Part shown: positions 40,152 to 51,991 of the stretch, in pieces
Numbering within the stretch: the stretch's first letter is position 1
Layout: each line of letters begins with the position of its first letter
Assembly (NCBI RefSeq): GCF_000266945.1
Contig: NC_018025.1
Span: 3,414,001-3,478,000 of the forward strand
Source of the DNA: Desulfomonile tiedjei DSM 6799
Lineage (GTDB): Bacteria; Desulfobacterota; Desulfomonilia; Desulfomonilales; Desulfomonilaceae
Direction: 5' to 3'
DNA: 64,000 nt
Position numbers and translations under genes: made by a program
Notes under the pieces: generated by a model
What the model was told of the DNA's origin: nothing
The model's database searches: none
Seen by the model: the letters and a program-made list of their open reading frames with translations, nothing else

Positions 40152-40279
40152 AATATTGGGGAGGGACTTCTCATAATTCTGCCCTAAACGGGACTCTCCT
40201 CTCCCAAAGGCGCTAATTATTCCAATTGGTTGTCCCAAAGGGACTGAAGAAGGCCGATTCAATTTCACAGGAGCCTGCC

Positions 40280-41932
40280 ATGCTCACGCGAATCGTAATC
40301 GTGCTGGCAACGACAGCCGCCGTGGCAGCGAACCTTTTAGCAGACGCACTCTTGTTCATGGACCCGATCTCCTTCAGCGCAGAAGCAGCCGAATTGCACG
40401 ATACGAAACGGCTTCACCAGAAAGAACTCAGAACTACAGAGAGCGCCAAACCCCTCAAAAATTTCAAACATGCTGAAGTAAAGGCCCAGCAGGCCCTCAC
40501 TGAACAGCTTTCTCACGCGATAGAAGAGGAGAATATTGACGAAGTGAAGGCGCTGCTAGCCAAGGGCGCTGACGTAAATCGTTATGACGGAGAAGGCAAG
40601 CTGCCGCTTGAGAAAGCAGCCGGGAAAGGCTCGATGGCATTGGTCAGGATCCTCTGGCATAGCGGGGCTGACCCGAACATCAGTAACCGCGACGGGCAGA
40701 AGACTCTCAAGGCCGCTTTTATAGAAGCTGTGAGTAATTGCCACCAAGATGTAGCTCGATACTTCCTGAATATCGGCGTGAATGTAAATGCGGCCCGCCC
40801 GAAGGAAGGCACGTTATTTCAGCGTGCAGCAAGATGCTCACGGGAATTTGCGGAGTTCCTTCTTGAGAGGGGCGCAGCGGAGATTGACTTGAAGACAGCC
40901 AGACTTCCTCTGGAAAGGGATGCTAACCTCCGCACCAGGGATGAGAAAGGCTGGACATCTCTGCACGAGGCGGTCTGGGAGGGACATCTCGATAAAGCCG
41001 CTCTCTTGTTGGACAACAAGGCCGAACCTAATGCGGTTGACTCTTTGGGTTGGACCCCCCTGATTCTGGCTGCCTGGAAAGGCCAACCCGAGGCCGTGAA
41101 TCTCCTTATCTCGAGGGGCGCAGACATACGTGTAGAAGATGCCTTCGGTAAGACGGCCTTCGTGAGAGCGGTCGAGATGGGCCATCGTGACGCTGCCTTG
41201 CTGCTCCTCAACAAGGGAGCCGATGTCAATACTGCTGATGTTTCGAGTTGGACCCCTATTATGGCCGCTGTCACGCGGAAGGACCGAGAGATGGTAAAAT
41301 TGCTTCGGGAGCGTGGGGCCAAAATGACAGTCGCTGCCGCTGTCTTGCTGGAGGACGAACGAGAGATGCAGCGGCTTCTTAAAGAGAGTGCAAAGAAGGG
41401 CGTCCAGATTGCGGACGCCTCCATGGCTCTGCTTATTGCCGTGAGGAACCGCAGCGAAAAAGTGGTCAGGCACATCCTGGACAAGTGCCCTGAAATGGAC
41501 ATCAAGGAACCATGCTGCGACACCGCTCTTCTGTTCGCCATCGAGAATAAGTACTCAGGAATCGCCGAAATTCTTTTAGAGAAGGGAGCTAACCCTAACG
41601 CGGCAGACCATTGGCGAAAAACGGCTCTTCATTATGCGGTCTGGAAGGGCGATCTCAGGCTGATCCGCATGCTTCTCGAAAAGGGAGCCCACGTCAATGC
41701 GCAAACGATAGGGTGGGATGGGACCCCTCTCATGGGTGCTGTGGAGAGGGCGAATGTCGAGATAGTGAAGCTGCTGCTACAAAACGGCGCGAGTCTCCGC
41801 GTGGGCCCAAATAGCGATGATCTCTGGATAGCAGCCGAGAAAAGCGGAAACAAAGAAGTCCTGGAAATGCTCAAAGCGCATGCCCTGAAACACCCTGACC
41901 AGCCTCAGCCAACTTCGCGTGAAGGCCAGTGA
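40280..41932 (+). CDS. Exported ankyrin-repeat protein
   Basis: 550 residues from the ATG at 40280 with CAGGAG 6 bp upstream. The N-terminal hydrophobic segment (RIVIVLATTAAVAANLLADA) is a signal peptide or anchor. The rest is about twelve ankyrin repeats of 33 residues; clear units include GWTSLHEAVWEGHLDKAALL, GWTPLILAAWKGQPEAVNLL and KTALHYAVWKGDLRLIRMLL, with degenerate repeats between. No enzymatic domain. Probably a periplasmic protein-binding module. It begins about 130 bp after gatB and is followed 21 bp later by a second exported protein, so the two may form a unit. Confidence 0.85.
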   Translation: MLTRIVIVLATTAAVAANLLADALLFMDPISFSAEAAELHDTKRLHQKELRTTESAKPLKNFKHAEVKAQQALTEQLSHAIEEENIDEVKALLAKGADVNRYDGEGKLPLEKAAGKGSMALVRILWHSGADPNISNRDGQKTLKAAFIEAVSNCHQDVARYFLNIGVNVNAARPKEGTLFQRAARCSREFAEFLLERGAAEIDLKTARLPLERDANLRTRDEKGWTSLHEAVWEGHLDKAALLLDNKAEPNAVDSLGWTPLILAAWKGQPEAVNLLISRGADIRVEDAFGKTAFVRAVEMGHRDAALLLLNKGADVNTADVSSWTPIMAAVTRKDREMVKLLRERGAKMTVAAAVLLEDEREMQRLLKESAKKGVQIADASMALLIAVRNRSEKVVRHILDKCPEMDIKEPCCDTALLFAIENKYSGIAEILLEKGANPNAADHWRKTALHYAVWKGDLRLIRMLLEKGAHVNAQTIGWDGTPLMGAVERANVEIVKLLLQNGASLRVGPNSDDLWIAAEKSGNKEVLEMLKAHALKHPDQPQPTSREGQ

Positions 41933-43104: not shown

Positions 43105-43545
43105 ATGGAGAAGAACCCCACTAAAATAGTAGTCTATCACTGTACAAACTTACGACTCTTTCATAATGGGAATCAGAAGAAGTTTGCACGGGAAAGGCCC
43201 GGCATCAATATCGTCGCTGTTCCATGCTCGGGCAAAGTCGAAGCGCATCATCTACTCAAAACACTGGCAAGCGGCGCGCAAGGCGTTATGGTCCTGGCCT
43301 GCGGAGAAAAAGCATGCCGGTACCTGGAGGGTTCCATGCGCTCCAAAAAACGGGTAGAATATGCGAAAGAATGGCTGGTGAAATTAGGAATCGAACCGGA
43401 GAGATTCCGATTCATACATGTCCCGCCGATGGATATTACGGCGCTGGACTCAGCCCTGAAGGAATTTGCCGCTGAATTGCAGTCCTTCGGAAACACACCT
43501 CCCATCGCAAAGAACCAGACTGAGTTGACTACTAATCCCAGATAA
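43105..43545 (+). CDS. MvhD-like hydrogenase/heterodisulfide-reductase iron-sulfur subunit
   Basis: 146 residues, the size of MvhD/FrhD delta subunits, which carry a 2Fe-2S cluster and pass electrons to HdrA. VAVPCSGKVEAHHLLKTLAS, VLACGEKACRYLEG and the KRVEYAKEWLVKLGIEPERF helix match the family. The N-terminal CxWCxY motif of the family is reduced here to a single Cys (VYHCTNLRLF). MetV and MetF follow, as in several acetogens and sulfate reducers where MvhD/HdrA link to MetFV. The ATG at 43105 gives the normal length, although the nearest purine-rich site (GGAAAGGG) is 17 bp upstream; the frame extends back to 42964 through the promoter and is not credible there. Confidence 0.8.
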   Translation: MEKNPTKIVVYHCTNLRLFHNGNQKKFARERPGINIVAVPCSGKVEAHHLLKTLASGAQGVMVLACGEKACRYLEGSMRSKKRVEYAKEWLVKLGIEPERFRFIHVPPMDITALDSALKEFAAELQSFGNTPPIAKNQTELTTNPR

Positions 43546-43611: not shown

Positions 43612-44280
43612 GTGATCGTTGCGGAGCTGAAAGAAATACGTGAGATCAGGAACATGGTCGATCGATACGCGTCCATACTCGTTGTGGGATGCGATTCCTG
43701 CGTAGCCGAATGCGCTGCAGGCGGACATCGTGAAACCATGCTGCTGAGTGCAGCTCTCAAGTTGTCTTACAAGAAAGACAACCTGAACCCTGTGATAACA
43801 GAAGCGTGCCTGGATCGGCAGTGCGTGGATGACTTCATCGAAGGAATCGCTCACCTCGTGCCCGAGCATGACGCAATACTCTCTCTCGGGTGTGGCGCAG
43901 GCGTCCAGGCTCTCGCGAGAGTGTACGCCGACAAGCCCATTATCCCTGCCCTGAATACCCTCTTCATCGGTGAAACCGAAATGAGAGGCGTCTGGCAGGA
44001 AAACTGCCTTGGCTGCGGCCAATGCAAGCTCGGCTATTTCGGCGCAGTCTGTCCCGTTACCCGTTGTTCCAAGAAACTCATGAACGGCCCCTGCGGCGGA
44101 TCCAAAGGCGGAAAATGCGAAGTAAATCCTGAAATCCGCTGCGGTTGGGACATGATCATTCGCCGGCTCGAGGCGTTGGGTGAACTCGACAGACTTACCG
44201 AATATGTCCCGCCTCTGGACTGGTCCACATCACATTCCGGAGGGCCGCGCCGTATCGTCAGGGAGGATCAGAAACCGTGA
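43612..44280 (+). CDS. metV: MetV, zinc/iron-sulfur partner of methylene-tetrahydrofolate reductase
   Basis: 222 residues. This family (methylene-THF reductase C-terminal domain protein) forms a complex with MetF in acetogens and deltaproteobacteria and supplies electrons through Fe-S or zinc sites. Cys motifs: VVGCDSCVAEC near residue 25, ACLDRQC, LGCGAG, and CLGCGQCKLG followed by CPVTRC and GPCGGSKGGKCE. GTG start at 43612 with AGGAGG 7 bp upstream. It ends in a 4-bp GTGA overlap with metF, so the two are translationally coupled. Confidence 0.88.
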   Translation: MIVAELKEIREIRNMVDRYASILVVGCDSCVAECAAGGHRETMLLSAALKLSYKKDNLNPVITEACLDRQCVDDFIEGIAHLVPEHDAILSLGCGAGVQALARVYADKPIIPALNTLFIGETEMRGVWQENCLGCGQCKLGYFGAVCPVTRCSKKLMNGPCGGSKGGKCEVNPEIRCGWDMIIRRLEALGELDRLTEYVPPLDWSTSHSGGPRRIVREDQKP

Positions 44281-45200
44281 ACACCGAAAGCCGTTTGGAA
44301 AAAGTTCTCACTTCCGGGAATTTCGCAGTTACTGCAGAATGCGGACCGCCAAAAGGTTCCGATGTTGCCGCTCTGCAGGAGAAAGGCAAACACCTTCTCA
44401 ATTGCGTGGACGCAGTAAACGTTACGGACAACCAGACTGCTATCGTCAGGATGTCTTCCGTAGCTGCTTCTGCCATCCTGAAGAACATGGGACACGAACC
44501 GGTGCTCCAGATGGTAACACGCGATCGAAACCGGATTGCGCTTCAGAGCGATCTCTTCGGAGCATATGCGCTGGGTGTCAGGAATGTCCTGTGTCTCACG
44601 GGCGATCACCACTCTTTCGGTAATCAGAAAGAAACCGTCGGTGTTTTCGATCTCGATTCCATACAGCTCCTGAGAACTGTCCGGGATATGCGCGAACAGG
44701 GAACGATCATCGGAGGAGAAGCAATCCAGGTTCCACCGAAGATGTTTATCGGCGCAGCGGAAAACCCTTTTGCAGACCCGATTTCCTGGCGAGTCGTCCG
44801 CCTTGCAAAGAAAGCGGCAGCAGGAGCGGATTTCATCCAGACCCAATGCATCTTCAATGTGGACCGGTTTGCTGAATTCATGAAGCAAGCCCACGATCGG
44901 GGCATCACCGAGAAATTGTACGTGCTCGCTGGCATTACTCCTCTGAAGACAGTCGGAATGGCCAGGTACATGGCAAACAAGGTTGCCGGAATGGAGATTC
45001 CCGAGGAATTGATTTCCCGTATGGCCGGAGTTCCCAAAGAGAAGCAGGCCGAAGAAGGAATCAAAATTACCGTAGAGACGATTCAGAGAGTCCGCGAAAT
45101 CCCGGGAGTAGCCGGTATCCATCTTATGGCCATTGAATGGGAACACAAGGTCCCGGAAATCCTGAAAGCAGCCGGTCTTGACAAAAGGCCTGCTGCTTAG
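44277..45200 (+). CDS. metF: 5,10-methylene-tetrahydrofolate reductase
   Basis: 307 residues. MetF forms the flavin TIM barrel that reduces methylene-THF to methyl-THF, either for methionine or in the methyl branch of the Wood-Ljungdahl pathway. Recognisable parts: VTAECGPPKGSD with the catalytic Glu, VLCLTGDH, GADFIQTQCIFNV and YVLAGITPL. GTG start inside the metV stop. The coupling to metV and mvhD-like genes argues for the energy-metabolism role rather than only methionine synthesis. Confidence 0.93.
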   Translation: MNTESRLEKVLTSGNFAVTAECGPPKGSDVAALQEKGKHLLNCVDAVNVTDNQTAIVRMSSVAASAILKNMGHEPVLQMVTRDRNRIALQSDLFGAYALGVRNVLCLTGDHHSFGNQKETVGVFDLDSIQLLRTVRDMREQGTIIGGEAIQVPPKMFIGAAENPFADPISWRVVRLAKKAAAGADFIQTQCIFNVDRFAEFMKQAHDRGITEKLYVLAGITPLKTVGMARYMANKVAGMEIPEELISRMAGVPKEKQAEEGIKITVETIQRVREIPGVAGIHLMAIEWEHKVPEILKAAGLDKRPAA

Positions 45201-45229: not shown

Positions 45230-46618
45230 ATGCCCAAAAAGTATCATATACACGTCCATGCCACACCGAATCGATTCCCGGTCGTGGGAAGATCCGGGAT
45301 AGTCGACTGGGGAGAAGGCTGTCTGAAATGTGCCGTCTGTGTGAAGCAGCGGTGCGTTTACGGTGTGTACAAATCCCGAACGTTTTCAACCGACATATTG
45401 TCCGACACCATCGACGAACTGTGCAAGAGCTGTTTTCGATGTGTGCAGGACTGCCCCAGGCGGTTGATTCATAAAACGATCAACCCCGAATGGGAGGCGC
45501 TCGGTGATGACGTTTACACGCCTCAGATAATCGCAGCAACCTGGGAACAGGCGAATACCGGCAAAATACCCGTATCCGGCGCAGGGTATGGGGGTCCCTT
45601 TTCCGGTCCCGGATTCGATTCCATGTGGACGGACATGAGTGAAATCGTCAGGCCCACACGAGACGGAATTCATGGCCGGGAATACATTTCCACGGTTGTG
45701 GACCTGGGAAGAAGACCCGGTTATTTGAAATTCGGCTCTGAAGGGAATCTGTTTGACGAATCACAGCCCTTCATTCGCATTCCCATTCCCCTGATTTTCG
45801 ATGTCCTCCCCTTTGGAGACCTGTCTCCCCAGGTCTGGAAGGCTGTTGGAGCAGCAGCGGTTGAATTGCAGACGCTTGCAATCGTTCCCGAAACAGTGGC
45901 CAGGGATCTGGCGGGCTTTGAGAACAACCTTGTTCCACTGCTTTCCGATGATCGTTTCGATGGAGAATGGGTCAAGAATTTCAGGATGGTCGAAATACCG
46001 GACGGAGATAAGGCGCTGGATCGGAAGGAAGCTCTAAAAGCGATCAAGCCGAACCTGCTCGTTTCCATCCGCATGCAGGCTTTGGCATCGAAAGAACAGG
46101 CGGCTCGTGTGGCCGACTATGCTCGAGCCGGCTTCGATCTCATCCATTTCGTTGCAGACGAGCGCGGGTATGAGCCGGGCGTCGAGGATGGTCTTCACAT
46201 CAAGGATGTCATCAGGTCGTTGCATTCGGCACTTCTCAGCGAGGGAATTCGGGACGAGGTCACGGTCATGAGCTCTGGCGGGGTCGCCATGGCCGAGCAC
46301 GTGATCAAGTCGCTCCTGTGCGGAGCGAACGTTGTCGGCGTAGATATTCCGCTGCTTATAGCGCTTGAATGCCGGGTGTGCCGAAATTGCCGTGAAGGCG
46401 GAGAATGCCCGGTGGATATTTCCGGCATCGATGCTCGCTGGGGCGTTCAGAGAATCATCAATCTCATCGGCGCCTGGCACAATCAGCTACTCGAGATGAT
46501 GGGAGCAATGGGTATTCGCGAGGCGCGGCGGCTGCGAGGCGAACAGGGCCGAGTTCTGTTTATGGAAGATCTCGAACGCGAAACGTTCGGCCGACTCTTT
46601 GCGCGAGATAACTCGTAA
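45230..46618 (+). CDS. Degenerate glutamate-synthase FMN-domain protein with N-terminal ferredoxin motifs
   Basis: 462 residues, related over its length to the next gene product. The N-terminus has Cys groups for two clusters (CLKCAVCVKQRC and CKSCFRCVQDC). The glutamate-synthase barrel follows, but the FMN/substrate loops are altered: PIPLIFDVLPFGDLSPQVW in place of the PxxGGGMSFGSIS loop, and no GSYGGTGAAP segment. The second phosphate-binding stretch (MSSGGVAMAEHVIKSLLCGA) and the Cys-rich loop (CRVCRNCREGGEC) are kept. It looks like a paralogue that has lost synthase activity and may be a scaffold or electron-transfer subunit. It starts 29 bp after metF. Confidence 0.7.
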   Translation: MPKKYHIHVHATPNRFPVVGRSGIVDWGEGCLKCAVCVKQRCVYGVYKSRTFSTDILSDTIDELCKSCFRCVQDCPRRLIHKTINPEWEALGDDVYTPQIIAATWEQANTGKIPVSGAGYGGPFSGPGFDSMWTDMSEIVRPTRDGIHGREYISTVVDLGRRPGYLKFGSEGNLFDESQPFIRIPIPLIFDVLPFGDLSPQVWKAVGAAAVELQTLAIVPETVARDLAGFENNLVPLLSDDRFDGEWVKNFRMVEIPDGDKALDRKEALKAIKPNLLVSIRMQALASKEQAARVADYARAGFDLIHFVADERGYEPGVEDGLHIKDVIRSLHSALLSEGIRDEVTVMSSGGVAMAEHVIKSLLCGANVVGVDIPLLIALECRVCRNCREGGECPVDISGIDARWGVQRIINLIGAWHNQLLEMMGAMGIREARRLRGEQGRVLFMEDLERETFGRLFARDNS

Positions 46619-46633
46619 TAAGGATCTGTTTTC

Positions 46634-48169
46634 ATGCATTACAAGAATATCTGGAGCGAAGTTCCTCCAGCAACGCCGATTCTGACTCCTTCACGATTCG
46701 GACGTGCAATCGGTAAATACACGGTCATGATCAGCGAGGCGTGCAATGACTGCCTCCGGTGCGTTTCGGTGTGCCCCGAAAAGGTGTTTGAAACACAGGG
46801 TGGAAAGATTGTTCCTCCTCACGATCACCGCTGTCTCGGGATCGAGTGTTCCAAAAAATCAAATCGCTGTATTGCGAATTGTCCGGTAAACGCCATCCGG
46901 GTGAACCTGAATCCGAGTGCCGAGGCTCTGGGTGATAAACGCTGGACTCCGGACCTTCTCATGAGCACTTGGCACATGGCGGAAACCGGGGAACTCCCCA
47001 AGAACGACCTGGAGTACAGAACCGGCGATTCAGGCGGAGGGTTCGACAAACTTCGCTTCCTTTTTCCCAAGAAGCTTCCCAGGCGTGATCTGGATAAACG
47101 GAATATCGATACATCCATCGATTTGAACCGCCGCAATGACGGCCGTCTCAAGATCACCATCCCGATTCCCGTGTACGGTGGCGGCATGTCCTTCGGATCT
47201 ATCAGTCAGATCACCATGTTGAGCCGAATTCGAGGATTCGCTGCATGGGGATCTTTCACCTGTACGGGTGAAGGCGGATATCCGGAAGCATTGTATCCTT
47301 TTGACGATCACATTATCACTCAGGTGGCTACGGGCCTTTTCGGCGTCAAAGAAGAGACGATACAGCGGGTAAAGATTGTAGAATTCAAATACGCTCAGGG
47401 CGCAAAGCCCGGTTTGGGCGGTCATTTGCTTGGCGACAAAGTCACCGAGGCCGTGGCTCGTATCCGTGAGACCGTGCCAGGGTCCTCATTGTTCAGCCCG
47501 TTTCCCTTCCATTCCGTGTACTCGGTTGAGGATCATAAGAAACACATTGACTGGATAAAGGCGATAAACAATCGCGGCCTGGTCTCGGTCAAGGTGTCCA
47601 CTCCTTCGGACGTGGACATGGTCGCAGTGGGTTCCTACTACGCAGGGGCTCACATAGTGCATCTGGACGGTTCGTACGGCGGAACCGGAGCAGCTCCGGA
47701 TGTGGCAAAGAAGAACATTGCCATGCCCATCGAGTACGCTATCCCCAAAGTCCACAATTTTCTCGTTACGGAAGGGGTTCGGGATCAGATTACGTTGATC
47801 GTCTCAGGCGGCCTTCGTACTGCGTACGACATTGCCAAAGCAATAGCGCTTGGAGCGGATGGTGTTGTCACAGGGACTTCAGATCTGGTGGCTCTGGAGT
47901 GTATCCGGTGCCATAACTGCGAGAGCGGTAGAGGCTGCGCCAGAGGCATAGCCACAACCGACTCGGAGCTGGTGGGATTGATGGAACTCGCGTGGGGAAC
48001 CCAGAGAATCATCAACATGCTGCATTGCTGGAAAAACCAGCTTCAAGAAATTCTGTTCCGCTTCGGAATGTCCAGCATTAGAGAACTGGTGGGACGCACT
48101 GATTTACTGGCCCATCTTGATTACAACTCGGATGTGCCGGATGACGATATCCGGCAGCCGCTCGCATGA
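46634..48169 (+). CDS. Glutamate-synthase FMN-domain protein with N-terminal ferredoxin motifs
   Basis: 511 residues. N-terminal ferredoxin-like Cys motifs (CNDCLRCVSVCPEKVF, and CLGIECSKKSNRCIANCP), then the complete FMN-binding TIM barrel of glutamate synthase: PVYGGGMSFGSIS, FTCTGEGGYPEALYP, LDGSYGGTGAAP, SGGLRTAYDIAKAIALGADG and the 3Fe-4S-type loop CIRCHNCESGRGC. This is the archaeal/ferredoxin-type GltB core that converts 2-oxoglutarate plus channelled ammonia to glutamate. It lies 15 bp after its degenerate paralogue and its stop overlaps the next start by 4 bp (ATGA), so the genes are translationally coupled. Confidence 0.82.
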   Translation: MHYKNIWSEVPPATPILTPSRFGRAIGKYTVMISEACNDCLRCVSVCPEKVFETQGGKIVPPHDHRCLGIECSKKSNRCIANCPVNAIRVNLNPSAEALGDKRWTPDLLMSTWHMAETGELPKNDLEYRTGDSGGGFDKLRFLFPKKLPRRDLDKRNIDTSIDLNRRNDGRLKITIPIPVYGGGMSFGSISQITMLSRIRGFAAWGSFTCTGEGGYPEALYPFDDHIITQVATGLFGVKEETIQRVKIVEFKYAQGAKPGLGGHLLGDKVTEAVARIRETVPGSSLFSPFPFHSVYSVEDHKKHIDWIKAINNRGLVSVKVSTPSDVDMVAVGSYYAGAHIVHLDGSYGGTGAAPDVAKKNIAMPIEYAIPKVHNFLVTEGVRDQITLIVSGGLRTAYDIAKAIALGADGVVTGTSDLVALECIRCHNCESGRGCARGIATTDSELVGLMELAWGTQRIINMLHCWKNQLQEILFRFGMSSIRELVGRTDLLAHLDYNSDVPDDDIRQPLA

Positions 48170-50835
48170 GGTTTGAGATGAAGTACGACGGGTCTTTTGC
48201 TGAAAAAATACTTGCCACCCGAATACGAGAATTCGGACGAGTCGATTTCTCCACGAATCTCAAGCGTGAGGACGAAGGCGGCTGCGGTGTCACCGGTTTC
48301 GCATGCAATATTCCTGTTGCGGGAAAACATATCTTCGAACCTTCCATACGCATGCACAACCGCGGAAACGGAAAAGGCGGCGGTATAGCCGCTGTCGGTT
48401 TCAGGCCGGAAATGCTCGGTGTTACGCGGGAAGTGCTGGATTCCCATTATATGCTGAATGTTGCACTGCTCGAGCCTAATTGCCTTCCCTTCCTGAAAGA
48501 GCAGTTTGTTACACCGTTTTTCAATGTGGCCAAGGAAGAGGTCATTGATCGTATGGCCGACTGGCGGGATCTTGAAGGCCTCGAGGTAAAACCGCCTGAC
48601 GTCTGGCGAGCTTTCGTACGAGTCAAACCGGAAATCCTGAAGGATTTTGTGCAGAAAAACGGATTCGAGAAGATGCCCGCGCGCTGGGCTGAAGATGAGT
48701 TTGTCAGCCGCAATTCCATTCATCTGAATCGCAGGTTTTACAGCTCGCTTGGAGAAAAGCAGGCGTTCGTGCTTTCCCATGGCAGAAACGTGATGATCCT
48801 CAAGATAGTCGGATACGCGGAAAACGTGGTCCGATACTATAAGCTTGACGATTTTGAGGCTCACGTGTGGATCGCCCATCAGCGCTATCCTACTCGAGGT
48901 CGCGTATGGCACCCCGGCGGCGCTCATCCGTTCACCGGTTTGAATGAAGCGCTGGTACATAACGGGGATTTCGCGAATTATCACGCCACCTGCGATTATC
49001 TGAAGCAACGAGGGCTCGAACCGCAGTTCATGACCGACACGGAAGTCAGTGTTATGCTGTTCGACCTTTGGAACAGAGTATACGGCTACCCTCTCGAAGT
49101 TATAATCGAAGCACTTGCACCTACGGGAGAATTGGACTTCGACCTGCTCTCCCCCGAGAAACAGGCACTTTACGACCAAGTTCAGCAGACCCATATCCAT
49201 GCCTCCCCGGACGGCCCCTGGTTTTTCATTATTGCCCGGAATATCCCGGAGTCCCAGACGTTTCAGTTGCTCGGCATAACGGATACCTCGATGCTGAGGC
49301 CGCAGGTTTTTGCATTGTATGACGGCGAAGTCCAGGTCGGTCTCATCTGTTCCGAAAAACAGGCTATTGACGCGACACTGCGTTCGTTGGCGGAATCCGA
49401 TCCTCGCTTCAGCACGATTGCCGACAAATACTGGAATGCTCGCGGCGGGTCGCGTTCCGACGGTGGAGCCTTCATGTTCAACGTGACGCCTGACGGCAAT
49501 GGAAGCAACCAGCTTTCCTGCTATGACAAATTCGGGCGAAAGGTCGAGATCGAGAGCCGGAAGCCCATGGATGTCACCCTGCCCGTCACCAAGCCCAACG
49601 ACTTCGAGTCCGAAATCCAACCATTGCTGAATGATACGTTTTCGGACAAGACCGGGAGGAAGACATTCGAGCTCTTTCAGGACCGGGCAGTGCACTTGGA
49701 TTACAATACCCTGCGGTACGCGATCAGGAATCTCGGACGAACGGCCCGCAAGCAAAAGCACTTGTTCCAGACCATCATCAATGCATTCACGTTGATGATA
49801 GACCGAAAATTCCCGCTTGGAGACAAGAAACGATCCGCTCTGGTGAGGATGGTCACCGAGGAGTTGAACGACACTTTCAGGTCGCTCCCCATGATCACCG
49901 AACCCATGAGCATCGGGAACTACGTGCTGGTGAACGCGGAAACCGGAAAGAATTTGCGGCCCCCTCTCGCGGTGGAACGTGCTCTGGTCATCGATGCCAA
50001 GGATTTCGAGCCTGAAGGCGACGAATGTGACGCTGTTATGATTGCGGATGCATATCGTCTCGGTTGGAGGAAATTCATCGTTTTCGATCTTCGCGGCCAA
50101 AGGTTCCACGGGTCGGGCTTCGGTTCGACTACCGCAGGCGTGCGGATGGATCTGTATGGAGCATCCGGAGATTACATGGCCAGCGGGATCGATGGCATGG
50201 AAATCCATGTGCACGGGAACGGGCAGGACCAGTTGGGTCAGATCATGAAGAGCGGACAGCTCGTGGTTCACGGCGATGTGGGCCAGTGTTTCATGTATGG
50301 CGCCAAAGGCGGCACCACCTTCGTGTTGGGTAACGCTGCAGGACGTCCTCTGATCAATGCTGCGGGACACCCGAGAGTCGTGATCAACGGGACTGCACTG
50401 GACTTTCTTGCAGAAAGCTTTATGGCTGGAGATCCCTTGAAAGGAGGCGGCTTCGTCATCGTGAACGGTCTTACCATGGATGAAGACGGAAATATCATTT
50501 TCCGGAACAGACCGTATCCGGGATCGAACCTTTTTTCACTCGCTTCCGGCGGTGCACTCTACATGCGGGATCCCAACCGGATGATCGTGGAAGAACAGCT
50601 CAACGGCGGTGCTTTATCGGAGCTTTCCGATGCGGACTGGAACCTGATCTATCCGTACCTGCTGGAAAATGAAAAGCATTTCGGCATCAAGGTGGAAGAA
50701 CTCCTGACTGTCGATGGAGTCGTCAGAAGTCCCAAGGAAGTGTATCGCAAAATCGAAGCAGTGCCTCTGGCGGTCCTCAGTAAGATCCCCAGCACAGACG
50801 ATTCAGTCTGGGCGGCAAATCCTCTCGCACCGTAG
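48166..50835 (+). CDS. Glutaminase (class II GATase) fused to GXGXG domain, without FMN domain
   Basis: 889 residues. Residues from Cys40 (GGCGVTGFACN) form a class II glutamine amidotransferase: MHNRGNGKGGG, HQRYPTRGRVWHPGGAHPF, NEALVHNGDFANY and MTDTEVS. If Cys40 is the nucleophile, a 39-residue propeptide would have to be removed, as in E. coli GltB. About 640-800 is the GXGXG helix domain of glutamate synthase (GSGFGSTTAGV, DGMEIHVHGNGQDQLGQI, MYGAKGGTTFVLGNAAGRP). The central and FMN domains that normally lie between are absent and are encoded by the two preceding genes. Start at 48166 overlaps the previous stop; Met5 is an alternative. Confidence 0.8.
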   Translation: MRFEMKYDGSFAEKILATRIREFGRVDFSTNLKREDEGGCGVTGFACNIPVAGKHIFEPSIRMHNRGNGKGGGIAAVGFRPEMLGVTREVLDSHYMLNVALLEPNCLPFLKEQFVTPFFNVAKEEVIDRMADWRDLEGLEVKPPDVWRAFVRVKPEILKDFVQKNGFEKMPARWAEDEFVSRNSIHLNRRFYSSLGEKQAFVLSHGRNVMILKIVGYAENVVRYYKLDDFEAHVWIAHQRYPTRGRVWHPGGAHPFTGLNEALVHNGDFANYHATCDYLKQRGLEPQFMTDTEVSVMLFDLWNRVYGYPLEVIIEALAPTGELDFDLLSPEKQALYDQVQQTHIHASPDGPWFFIIARNIPESQTFQLLGITDTSMLRPQVFALYDGEVQVGLICSEKQAIDATLRSLAESDPRFSTIADKYWNARGGSRSDGGAFMFNVTPDGNGSNQLSCYDKFGRKVEIESRKPMDVTLPVTKPNDFESEIQPLLNDTFSDKTGRKTFELFQDRAVHLDYNTLRYAIRNLGRTARKQKHLFQTIINAFTLMIDRKFPLGDKKRSALVRMVTEELNDTFRSLPMITEPMSIGNYVLVNAETGKNLRPPLAVERALVIDAKDFEPEGDECDAVMIADAYRLGWRKFIVFDLRGQRFHGSGFGSTTAGVRMDLYGASGDYMASGIDGMEIHVHGNGQDQLGQIMKSGQLVVHGDVGQCFMYGAKGGTTFVLGNAAGRPLINAAGHPRVVINGTALDFLAESFMAGDPLKGGGFVIVNGLTMDEDGNIIFRNRPYPGSNLFSLASGGALYMRDPNRMIVEEQLNGGALSELSDADWNLIYPYLLENEKHFGIKVEELLTVDGVVRSPKEVYRKIEAVPLAVLSKIPSTDDSVWAANPLAP

Positions 50836-51052: not shown

Positions 51053-51991
51053 CTACCTGGAAAGGCTGTTTTTCTTGAGCATTGCGTTTAGGATGACGAT
51101 CATCTTACGCATACAAGCCGTGATGGCAACCTTGAAAGGTTTTCCAGCCTCAATGAGGCGTTGATAGAAAGGCTTGATGACTACATTGGACGTTATGGCC
51201 GCGACTGCAGCCATATACAGGGTTGAGCGTACATCCGCCCGTCCACCCGAAATCTCGCGCTTGCCTTTCTTCTTTCCGCTGTCTTTGTTGAGAGGCGCCA
51301 GGCCGACGAGGCGACTGATTTCATGACGGCTGACATGTCCCAGTTCGGGCAGTTTTGCCATGAGCACTCTGGCAGTTATGGGGCCCACGCCTTTGAAGGT
51401 TCGGAGGAGTTCCTCTGTTTCACGCCACAGAGGCGATTTCCTGATAAGGTCATCGACATCTTTATCGATGTCTTCGATTTCCTTATCTAGGGCTGCTATG
51501 ACCGTTTGAATGCTGCGCTGCACGCGATTGGAACGGGCTCGATGGAGGCGATTCTTTTCTGATGCACGCAAATCAACAAGCTGCTTTCGACGTGTTACGA
51601 GTTCCTTGATTTGCTTTTCGTCCTCCGTTGGCAGCGGCTTCGGTATGGGCCTAACCGTTTGGGCAAAGCGTGCCAGCACATAAGCATCGATGGCGTCTGT
51701 CTTGGCGAGTTTTCCGATGCCTTTAGCAAAGTCCCGCACCTGACCAGGGTTGACGACAGCGATCGGCAGGCCGGCGAGACCTAACTGGGCCGCAACGGTT
51801 ATCTCGTAGCCTCCGGTGGCTTCCATCACGATTACCATGGGGGTCTCTGCGTGGAGGATCTCAATCAGCGAGTCGATGCCTTGAGTGTCATTCTTGACGG
51901 TGGTGTGCATGCCTTTTGGCAGCACATGCGCATCCAACTGATCTTTAGAGATATCTATGCCAACAAAAACTTCTTCATGCATGTGTAACAT
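51053..51991 (-). CDS. IS110-family transposase (DEDD recombinase)
   Basis: 312 residues, apparently intact. The N-terminal RuvC-like DEDD domain has Asp13 (VGIDISKD), Glu57 (VMEATGG), Asp99 and Asp102 (KTDAIDA). The C-terminal Transposase_20 domain has TFKGVGPITARVLMAKLPEL, RLVGLAPLNKDSGKKKGKRE and GRADVRSTLYMAA, which contains the conserved Ser. Family members act with a bridge RNA transcribed from the element's own non-coding end. Start may be Met1 at 51991 or Met4 at 51982 (GGGTGGG about 9 bp before the latter). Confidence 0.93.
   Translation of the reverse strand: MLHMHEEVFVGIDISKDQLDAHVLPKGMHTTVKNDTQGIDSLIEILHAETPMVIVMEATGGYEITVAAQLGLAGLPIAVVNPGQVRDFAKGIGKLAKTDAIDAYVLARFAQTVRPIPKPLPTEDEKQIKELVTRRKQLVDLRASEKNRLHRARSNRVQRSIQTVIAALDKEIEDIDKDVDDLIRKSPLWRETEELLRTFKGVGPITARVLMAKLPELGHVSRHEISRLVGLAPLNKDSGKKKGKREISGGRADVRSTLYMAAVAAITSNVVIKPFYQRLIEAGKPFKVAITACMRKMIVILNAMLKKNSLSR

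Follow-up and report, generated by a model that had tools for sequence, protein, structure and literature searches.

What does a second glutamate-synthase-like protein do directly beside a glutamate synthase subunit when it has lost the motifs of the catalytic site? The question is raised by the gene at 45230..46618, here called X, in a 64,000-nucleotide stretch of the Desulfomonile tiedjei DSM 6799 genome (the window, G000:C1:3414001-3478000; the genome comprises 6,527,027 bases on two contigs, and contig 1 has 6,500,104 bases). X lies in a run of six genes on one strand that are separated by gaps of 15 to 66 nt or overlap by 4 nt, and the run from mvhD to gatGX looks like a single operon:

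43105..43545, + strand: mvhD (FlpD, PF02662, E 9.3e-27), with a presumed ATG start at 43105
43612..44280, + strand: metV (DUF5981, PF12225, E 2.3e-35), methylene-THF reductase C-terminal / Fe-S partner
44277..45200, + strand: metF, methylene-tetrahydrofolate reductase (PF02219, E 1.5e-41)
45230..46618, + strand: X, Fe-S paralogue of glutamate synthase with a degenerate catalytic site, proposed to act in electron relay and docking (ATG start, 462 aa)
46634..48169, + strand: gltB, ferredoxin plus FMN/2-oxoglutarate glutamate-synthase subunit, the partner of X (PF01645, E 1.5e-89)
48166..50835, + strand: gatGX, glutamine amidotransferase (Cys40, EGGCGV) plus GXGXG domain (GATase_6 and GXGXG matches)

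The metF gene overlaps metV by 4 nt and ends 29 nt ahead of X. MvhD is a small [2Fe-2S]-type electron carrier and likely the donor to X. Cys40 of GatGX, which we take to be the nucleophile, falls in the conservation class of at least 95% (54 rows). No hdr gene was seen beside X among the window ORFs, six of which were scanned with Pfam. Elsewhere the genome encodes a further two MTHFR-family and nine FlpD/MvhD proteins; 3 of the 10 FlpD/MvhD genes have an in-frame TGA within the match (G000:C1:4955006, 4959962 and 2304945, all outside the window), which may encode selenocysteine. The genome also has a third PF01645 protein (L003, L109; G000:C1:4880792-4881151), a 568-aa frame without an N-terminal ferredoxin that is distant from X and from GltB alike. 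Judged by eye, the operon is flanked on its 5' side by a gene for a 568-aa ankyrin-repeat-like protein (40226-41932) and just 3' of gatGX by an IS110-type transposase-like ORF on the minus strand (51053-51991).

Alignment of the X and GltB products, which the initial annotation had called for, indicates that they are full-length paralogues with X homologous to GltB across its entire length. BLASTP gives 28% identity over 480 columns (E 4e-36) and profile-profile comparison a probability of 100 over 415 columns (E 1.9e-65). The elements said to be common to both, namely the ferredoxin motifs, the NPxxEALGD...TW segment (NPEWEALGDDVYTPQIIAATW versus NPSAEALGDKRWTPDLLMSTW) and the C-terminal Cys loop, are all present. 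An alignment of 72 X sequences, consisting of the window X and 71 relatives (nine of 80 loci were excluded because the sequence was truncated, disrupted or too long or had not been called), delimits the following features:

45314..45469, + strand: ferredoxin domain, residues 29-80, with C31/34/37/42 and C65/68/71/75 invariant in 72/72
45566..45694, + strand: most conserved segment of the alignment, residues 113-155 (PVSGAGYGGPFSGPGFDSMWTDMSEIVRPTRDGIHGREYIST)
45770..46369, + strand: TIM-barrel region without catalytic loops, residues 181-380, from fold prediction and motif counts
46274..46282, + strand: retained Gly-Gly loop (SGG), residues 349-351, with G350 and G351 in 72/72
46343..46345, + strand: Asp372 in place of the invariant G414-T415 of GltB in the last phosphate loop; D in 63/72 X
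46370..46408, + strand: C-terminal four-Cys loop CxxCxxCx5C, residues 381-393 (C381/384/387/393), invariant in 72/72
46499..46552, + strand: residues 424-441 (MGAMGIREARRLRGEQGR), a GxMG[RN]-type signature found in 71/72 X

Altogether 12 cysteines in three sets of four are invariant across the 72 X proteins, which would leave room for three Fe-S clusters. Note that the nearest ferredoxin Pfam model, PF13237, scores slightly under its cut-off on X (23.1 vs 25.5). The most conserved part of the protein, residues 113-155, was overlooked in the earlier reading of the sequence; much of this stretch is invariant, and its consensus, PVSGaGYxGpFsGxGFDsmWTDMSEIVRPTRDGIHGREYI, contains many invariant charged residues. 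The least conserved part is formed by the barrel loop regions, at about residues 190-330.

What X has lost is the catalytic equipment. The motifs TGEGG, GAKPGxGGHL, SPxPxHxxYSxED, GGTGAAP and GADxxxxGT occur in none of the 72 X sequences vs all 61 partner GltBs, and the reported lack of GGGMSFGSIS and GGTGAAP in the window X is borne out. The broader claim that the FMN and substrate loops are gone holds for these five motifs but not for the Gly-Gly pair G350-G351, which every X keeps. Since the catalytic loops are lost and Asp372 replaces Gly-Thr, X probably does not hold FMN in the usual way. Altered flavin binding may nevertheless occur, given the invariant Gly-Gly loop and a basic residue, R281, near the position of GltB K320 (R or K at that site in 69/72 X). 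PF01645 scores 51.2 bits on X (curated cut-off 20.4) while covering only model positions 253-368 of 369. The window X is named by no NCBIfam model at cut-off, and the commonest NCBIfam match over the 72 X proteins is a weak partial one to the glutamate synthase large subunit (42/72).

The AlphaFold2 model of X alone is a barrel with all TIM-barrel strands predicted (mean pLDDT 84.7). The only listed stretch with pLDDT below 50 in this isolated model is residues 116-147, within the conserved segment 113-155, and the model of GltB alone falls below 50 at residues 1-5 and at the conserved catalytic loops. Low pLDDT in an invariant stretch may mark a site awaiting a cofactor or partner, or may simply reflect too little alignment variation. 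The best structural matches of X are glutamate synthases in their FMN-domain region, with the model superposing on 6s6s_A 781-1179 with Z 23.6 and an rmsd of 3.3 Å over 297 residues. Hydroxyacid oxidases and IMPDH are the other top Foldseek matches, and we discount them as a guide to function because the FMN-barrel fold is common to them. We also considered that X might be the detached, non-catalytic central domain of a classical glutamate synthase; this seems less likely, since PF04898, the model for that domain, has no match to X up to E 1 and the best structural match lies at residues 781-1179 of 6s6s_A.

X is tightly tied to GltB. A contig scan found 296 X-encoding stretches, the best 80 of which were retained, and gene order around these was scored by tblastn because the greedy ORF caller placed some spurious opposite-strand ORFs over real genes (for example in L084, L092 and L093). 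Counting only loci with enough DNA, gltB lies directly downstream of X in 73/73 and gatGX downstream in 64/65. Where at least 2.5 kb is available upstream, an mvhD-like gene is present in 53/53 loci, metF in 48/53 and metV in 31/53, and where at least 7.5 kb is available downstream, hdr genes are found in 19/45. The order mvhD-(metV)-metF-X-gltB-GATase/GXGXG is therefore nearly fixed. A survey of 297 genomes of the phylum, a set that overlaps the 80 loci in some records so that the two counts are not independent, shows X (E <= 1e-40) in 86 genomes, 77 of them strong (E <= 1.1e-99) and 9 weak, and a partner-type GltB (E <= 1e-100) in 76. One of the latter, G022 (342 bits), is of a different, X-less type; all 75 genomes with a strong GltB (above 600 bits) also have X. 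In 71 of these 75 the two genes are same-strand neighbours (median gap 26 nt); in the other 4 they are found on different contigs. Only two genomes (G003 and G041) have X without this GltB, and in both the contig breaks off close to X on the side where gltB would lie.

In some genomes the two proteins are joined. Eight genomes encode an X-GltB fusion in one uninterrupted frame (975-1099 aa), the domain order being confirmed by BLASTP in three (L085, L086 and L087), and a ninth record (L094) ends within such a fusion. The nine weak X matches of the genome survey are X-like stretches within open frames of 1,518-2,567 aa. Four giant proteins were examined, with Pfam run on L088, L090 and L091, and these carry an FAD-oxidase, an Fe-S domain (Fer4_8), X, GltB and GATase/GXGXG in that order. 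Three are single chains of about 2,530 aa, and L090 is divided between two ORFs:

L088:3966-11552: giant, single chain
L089:324-7910: giant, single chain
L091:4691-12346: giant, single chain

From their domain content, the four giants would each seem to be a complete glutamate synthase that carries its own electron source. In all four, the 8 ferredoxin cysteines persist in the X module, while the GltB module lacks any ferredoxin-type set of cysteines and retains just a three-Cys loop behind its barrel. Along such a chain nothing but the X clusters would stand between the clusters of the oxidase and the FMN domain. No other single observation speaks as strongly for an electron-relay role of X, with the limitation that these modules are remote homologues with 25-28% identity. 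The GltB module of the giants retains TGEGG, SPFPFH and GGTGAAP, and segment 113-155 is present in neither module. The C-terminal Cys set of X is missing both in the giants and in one X-GltB fusion (L086); this set is thus not always needed.

A GltB that occurs without X gives a view of what each partner has kept. Thirty such loci of the same phylum, 61-100% identical to L098 and forming one clade, encode a GltB that has the catalytic loops, a pre-barrel segment homologous to X 113-155 by direct profile alignment, and the C-terminal GxMG; a few of the genomes with an X-less GltB also have an X-type cluster elsewhere. The pre-barrel segment is found in 72/72 X, 0/61 partner GltBs and, in its own form, 30/30 X-less GltBs, and the GxMG[RN]-type signature in 71/72, 0/61 and 29/30, respectively. 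These motifs were picked after viewing the alignment, so the counts are a description rather than a blind test. The pattern suggests that the duplicate copies shared out ancestral features between X and GltB.

The duplication itself is old. A 42-row tree, built from 16 of the 72 X, 13 of the 61 GltBs, one X-less GltB and the separated X and GltB parts of three giants and three fusions, places X and the X modules of the giants in one clade (100/99), separate from all GltBs including the X-less outgroup. Since this clade includes the giants' modules, the duplication predates the split of the giants from the ordinary clusters. The initial annotation had seen X as a tandem duplicate, which fits its position but not a recent origin. 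The best 80 of the 296 stretches, nearly all from MAGs with taxon labels as binned, are labelled as Deltaproteobacteria/Desulfobacterota relatives, Planctomycetota, Chloroflexi/Dehalococcoidia, Omnitrophota and Armatimonadota, and further as Hydrogenedentota, Kiritimatiellota, Latescibacterota, Spirochaetia and others; the closest relative of X among these 80 comes from a MAG labelled Desulfomonile tiedjei (79%). X is also under purifying selection. Most of the 21 pairs compared per gene are saturated at synonymous sites, and only three X pairs have dS below 1; the two most informative give dN/dS ratios of 0.081 (L010-L018) and 0.058 (L010-L009), and the third, L018-L009 with 97% identity, gives 0.159. 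Taken together, the dN/dS values, tree and distribution rule out X as a decaying copy or a recent tandem duplicate.

The genes upstream of X are more variable than those downstream. Five loci chosen for their lower X scores (L096, L099, L100, L101 and L103) have a separate FAD-oxidase/Fe-S gene directly before X and no mvhD or metF near; Pfam was run on the protein from L096, and the other four are 35-88% identical to it. Two loci (L106 and L107) have mvhD-metV-X without metF, and clusters in other genomes contain HdrCBA with NuoF-like or GltD-fused partners. This swapping between genomes indicates that X-GltB-GatGX is the core and that the donors are variable. The five X proteins with an FAD-oxidase neighbour keep segment 113-155, which weakens the idea that this segment is a docking site specific for MvhD/MetF. 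In one locus (L095:5655-9201) mvhD flanks metV-metF on both sides before X, with an HdrC-like gene upstream. Finally, a search of 109 loci places glnA (at least 54% identity) in the neighbourhood of seven separate clusters, counting L023/L108 and L045/L105 once each as identical contigs, and immediately ahead of all 4 giants, which fits glutamate synthesis as the output.

We consider it probable that X, GltB and GATase/GXGXG form a heteromeric glutamate synthase with interchangeable donors, in which X is an obligate, flavin-free Fe-S subunit for electron relay and docking. The proposal draws on the loss of the catalytic motifs, the 12 cysteines, the linkage and co-occurrence with GltB, the natural fusions and the exchange of donor genes, all read from sequence. 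The lost loops, the cysteines, the pairing and fusion with GltB and the position of the X module in the giants lend good support to one suggestion of the initial annotation, a non-catalytic subunit with an electron-transfer or structural role. In the proposed course of events, a whole ferredoxin-FMN GltB would have been duplicated long ago and the two copies would then have specialised: GltB would have retained the FMN/2-oxoglutarate chemistry, and X would have retained the Fe-S sites and the pre-barrel and C-terminal segments and become the electron entry point. Electrons would pass from a donor module to the X clusters, on to the GltB clusters and from there to the GltB FMN. At this site 2-oxoglutarate and glutamine-derived ammonia would give iminoglutarate, which the electrons would reduce to glutamate. 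The donor module would be MvhD with MetV/MetF in D. tiedjei, presumably in physical contact with X, and elsewhere either HdrCBA with NuoF-like or GltD-fused partners or an FAD-linked oxidase with its own clusters, encoded by a separate gene or fused in a chain of about 2,500 aa. The potential of the methylene-/methyl-THF couple is about -200 mV and that of 2-oxoglutarate plus ammonia/glutamate about -120 mV. These potentials would permit methyl-THF as a donor, the direction of flow itself being an assumption of the proposal. Note that the GltB of the window still has a ferredoxin of its own, and X is therefore not the sole possible electron entry to GltB, and that the operon linkage of X to metF and mvhD may reflect co-regulation rather than contact.

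As an alternative, X could be mainly architectural, supplying its partner GltB in trans with the pre-barrel and C-terminal segments that GltB has lost and using its Fe-S clusters as structural elements, which we regard as unlikely. The reciprocal split, with the segment in X and not in the partner GltB and the catalytic loops the reverse, speaks for this explanation, as do the homology of the segment to the X-less GltB and the fact that the segment holds the only low-pLDDT stretch of X, much as the catalytic loops do in GltB modelled alone. However, that low pLDDT may stem from little alignment variation, and in the giants both modules lack the segment yet GltB keeps its catalytic motifs, which argues that the segment is dispensable for catalysis. 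Their retained X ferredoxin and dropped GltB ferredoxin would also go unexplained. A strict form of complementation, with X 113-155 completing the GltB active site, is weakened by the same lack of the segment from both giant modules.

The initial annotation had also raised the possibility of a barrel enzyme with some other substrate; such an enzyme might or might not use a different cofactor and would draw electrons from its own clusters. Every TIM-barrel strand is indeed predicted, the SGG loop is invariant and many charged residues in segment 113-155 never vary; nevertheless conservation in X is lowest in the loop regions of the barrel (about 190-330), an Asp stands where the GT of the phosphate loop should be, and X occurs without this GltB in just two of the 297 genomes, both times at contig ends. 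We therefore judge an independent enzyme to be very improbable. Practically no weight at all can be given to X being a functionless, decaying duplicate retained by chance: the loss of all tested catalytic motifs is what such decay would produce, but dN/dS ratios of 0.06-0.08 in the unsaturated pairs, occurrence in many phyla, 12 invariant cysteines and 75/75 co-occurrence with GltB refute it. The relay/docking role can, on the other side, be extended to the claim that MvhD-MetVF (plus HdrABC where present) and glutamate synthase are one machine that shares an electron circuit via X. This we put forward tentatively and with low expectation. If true, methyl-/methylene-THF redox chemistry or a bifurcating HdrA would drive, or be driven by, 2-oxoglutarate amination, and the shared circuit would amount to a glutamate synthase that bifurcates electrons or is driven by methyl-THF.

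Compared with known systems, X has the same fold and C-terminal Cys loop as the FMN/Fe-S domain of the glutamate synthase large subunit (PF01645; 6s6s, 1ea0, 1ofd), but lacks the tested flavin/substrate loop motifs save Gly-Gly, has an extra N-terminal 8-Cys ferredoxin and is a separate subunit. The X-less ferredoxin-FMN GltB (for example L098, with separate GATase and GXGXG genes) has the architecture of X, consisting of ferredoxin, pre-barrel segment, barrel, Cys loop and GxMG, and differs in having its own catalytic loops, which X has lost, and no X alongside. The X clusters share mvhD, metV and metF, and in 19/45 loci hdr genes, with HdrABC-MvhD-MetVF clusters, which in the available portions of their published descriptions are without X or GltB genes (PMC5736913, PMC7325909, PMC7483475). 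Likewise, an hdrA-GltD fusion downstream of X in L065 matches type III HdrA with an inserted GltD domain / HdrL (PMC12054007, PMC2702500), which the available portions of the same two papers describe without a link to GltB or X. As far as the accessible part of the open-licence PMC literature extends, no description of X or of a MetF-glutamate-synthase cluster was recognised. X thus appears to be a previously unnamed non-catalytic paralogue subunit of glutamate synthase.

X and GltB offer a clean case of a catalytic subunit that has split in two, one copy remaining catalytic and the other probably serving to carry electrons, each with its share of the motifs. To our knowledge, the electron supply to glutamate synthase in anaerobes has mostly been assumed to be NADPH via GltD or free ferredoxin. 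The X family, present in 77/297 genomes of one phylum and in records from many other phyla, appears to be a socket for differing electron sources, with methylene-THF reductase/MvhD/Hdr apparently plugged into X in most clusters and an FAD-linked oxidase in others. The X clusters suggest a direct tie of one-carbon redox chemistry to nitrogen assimilation.
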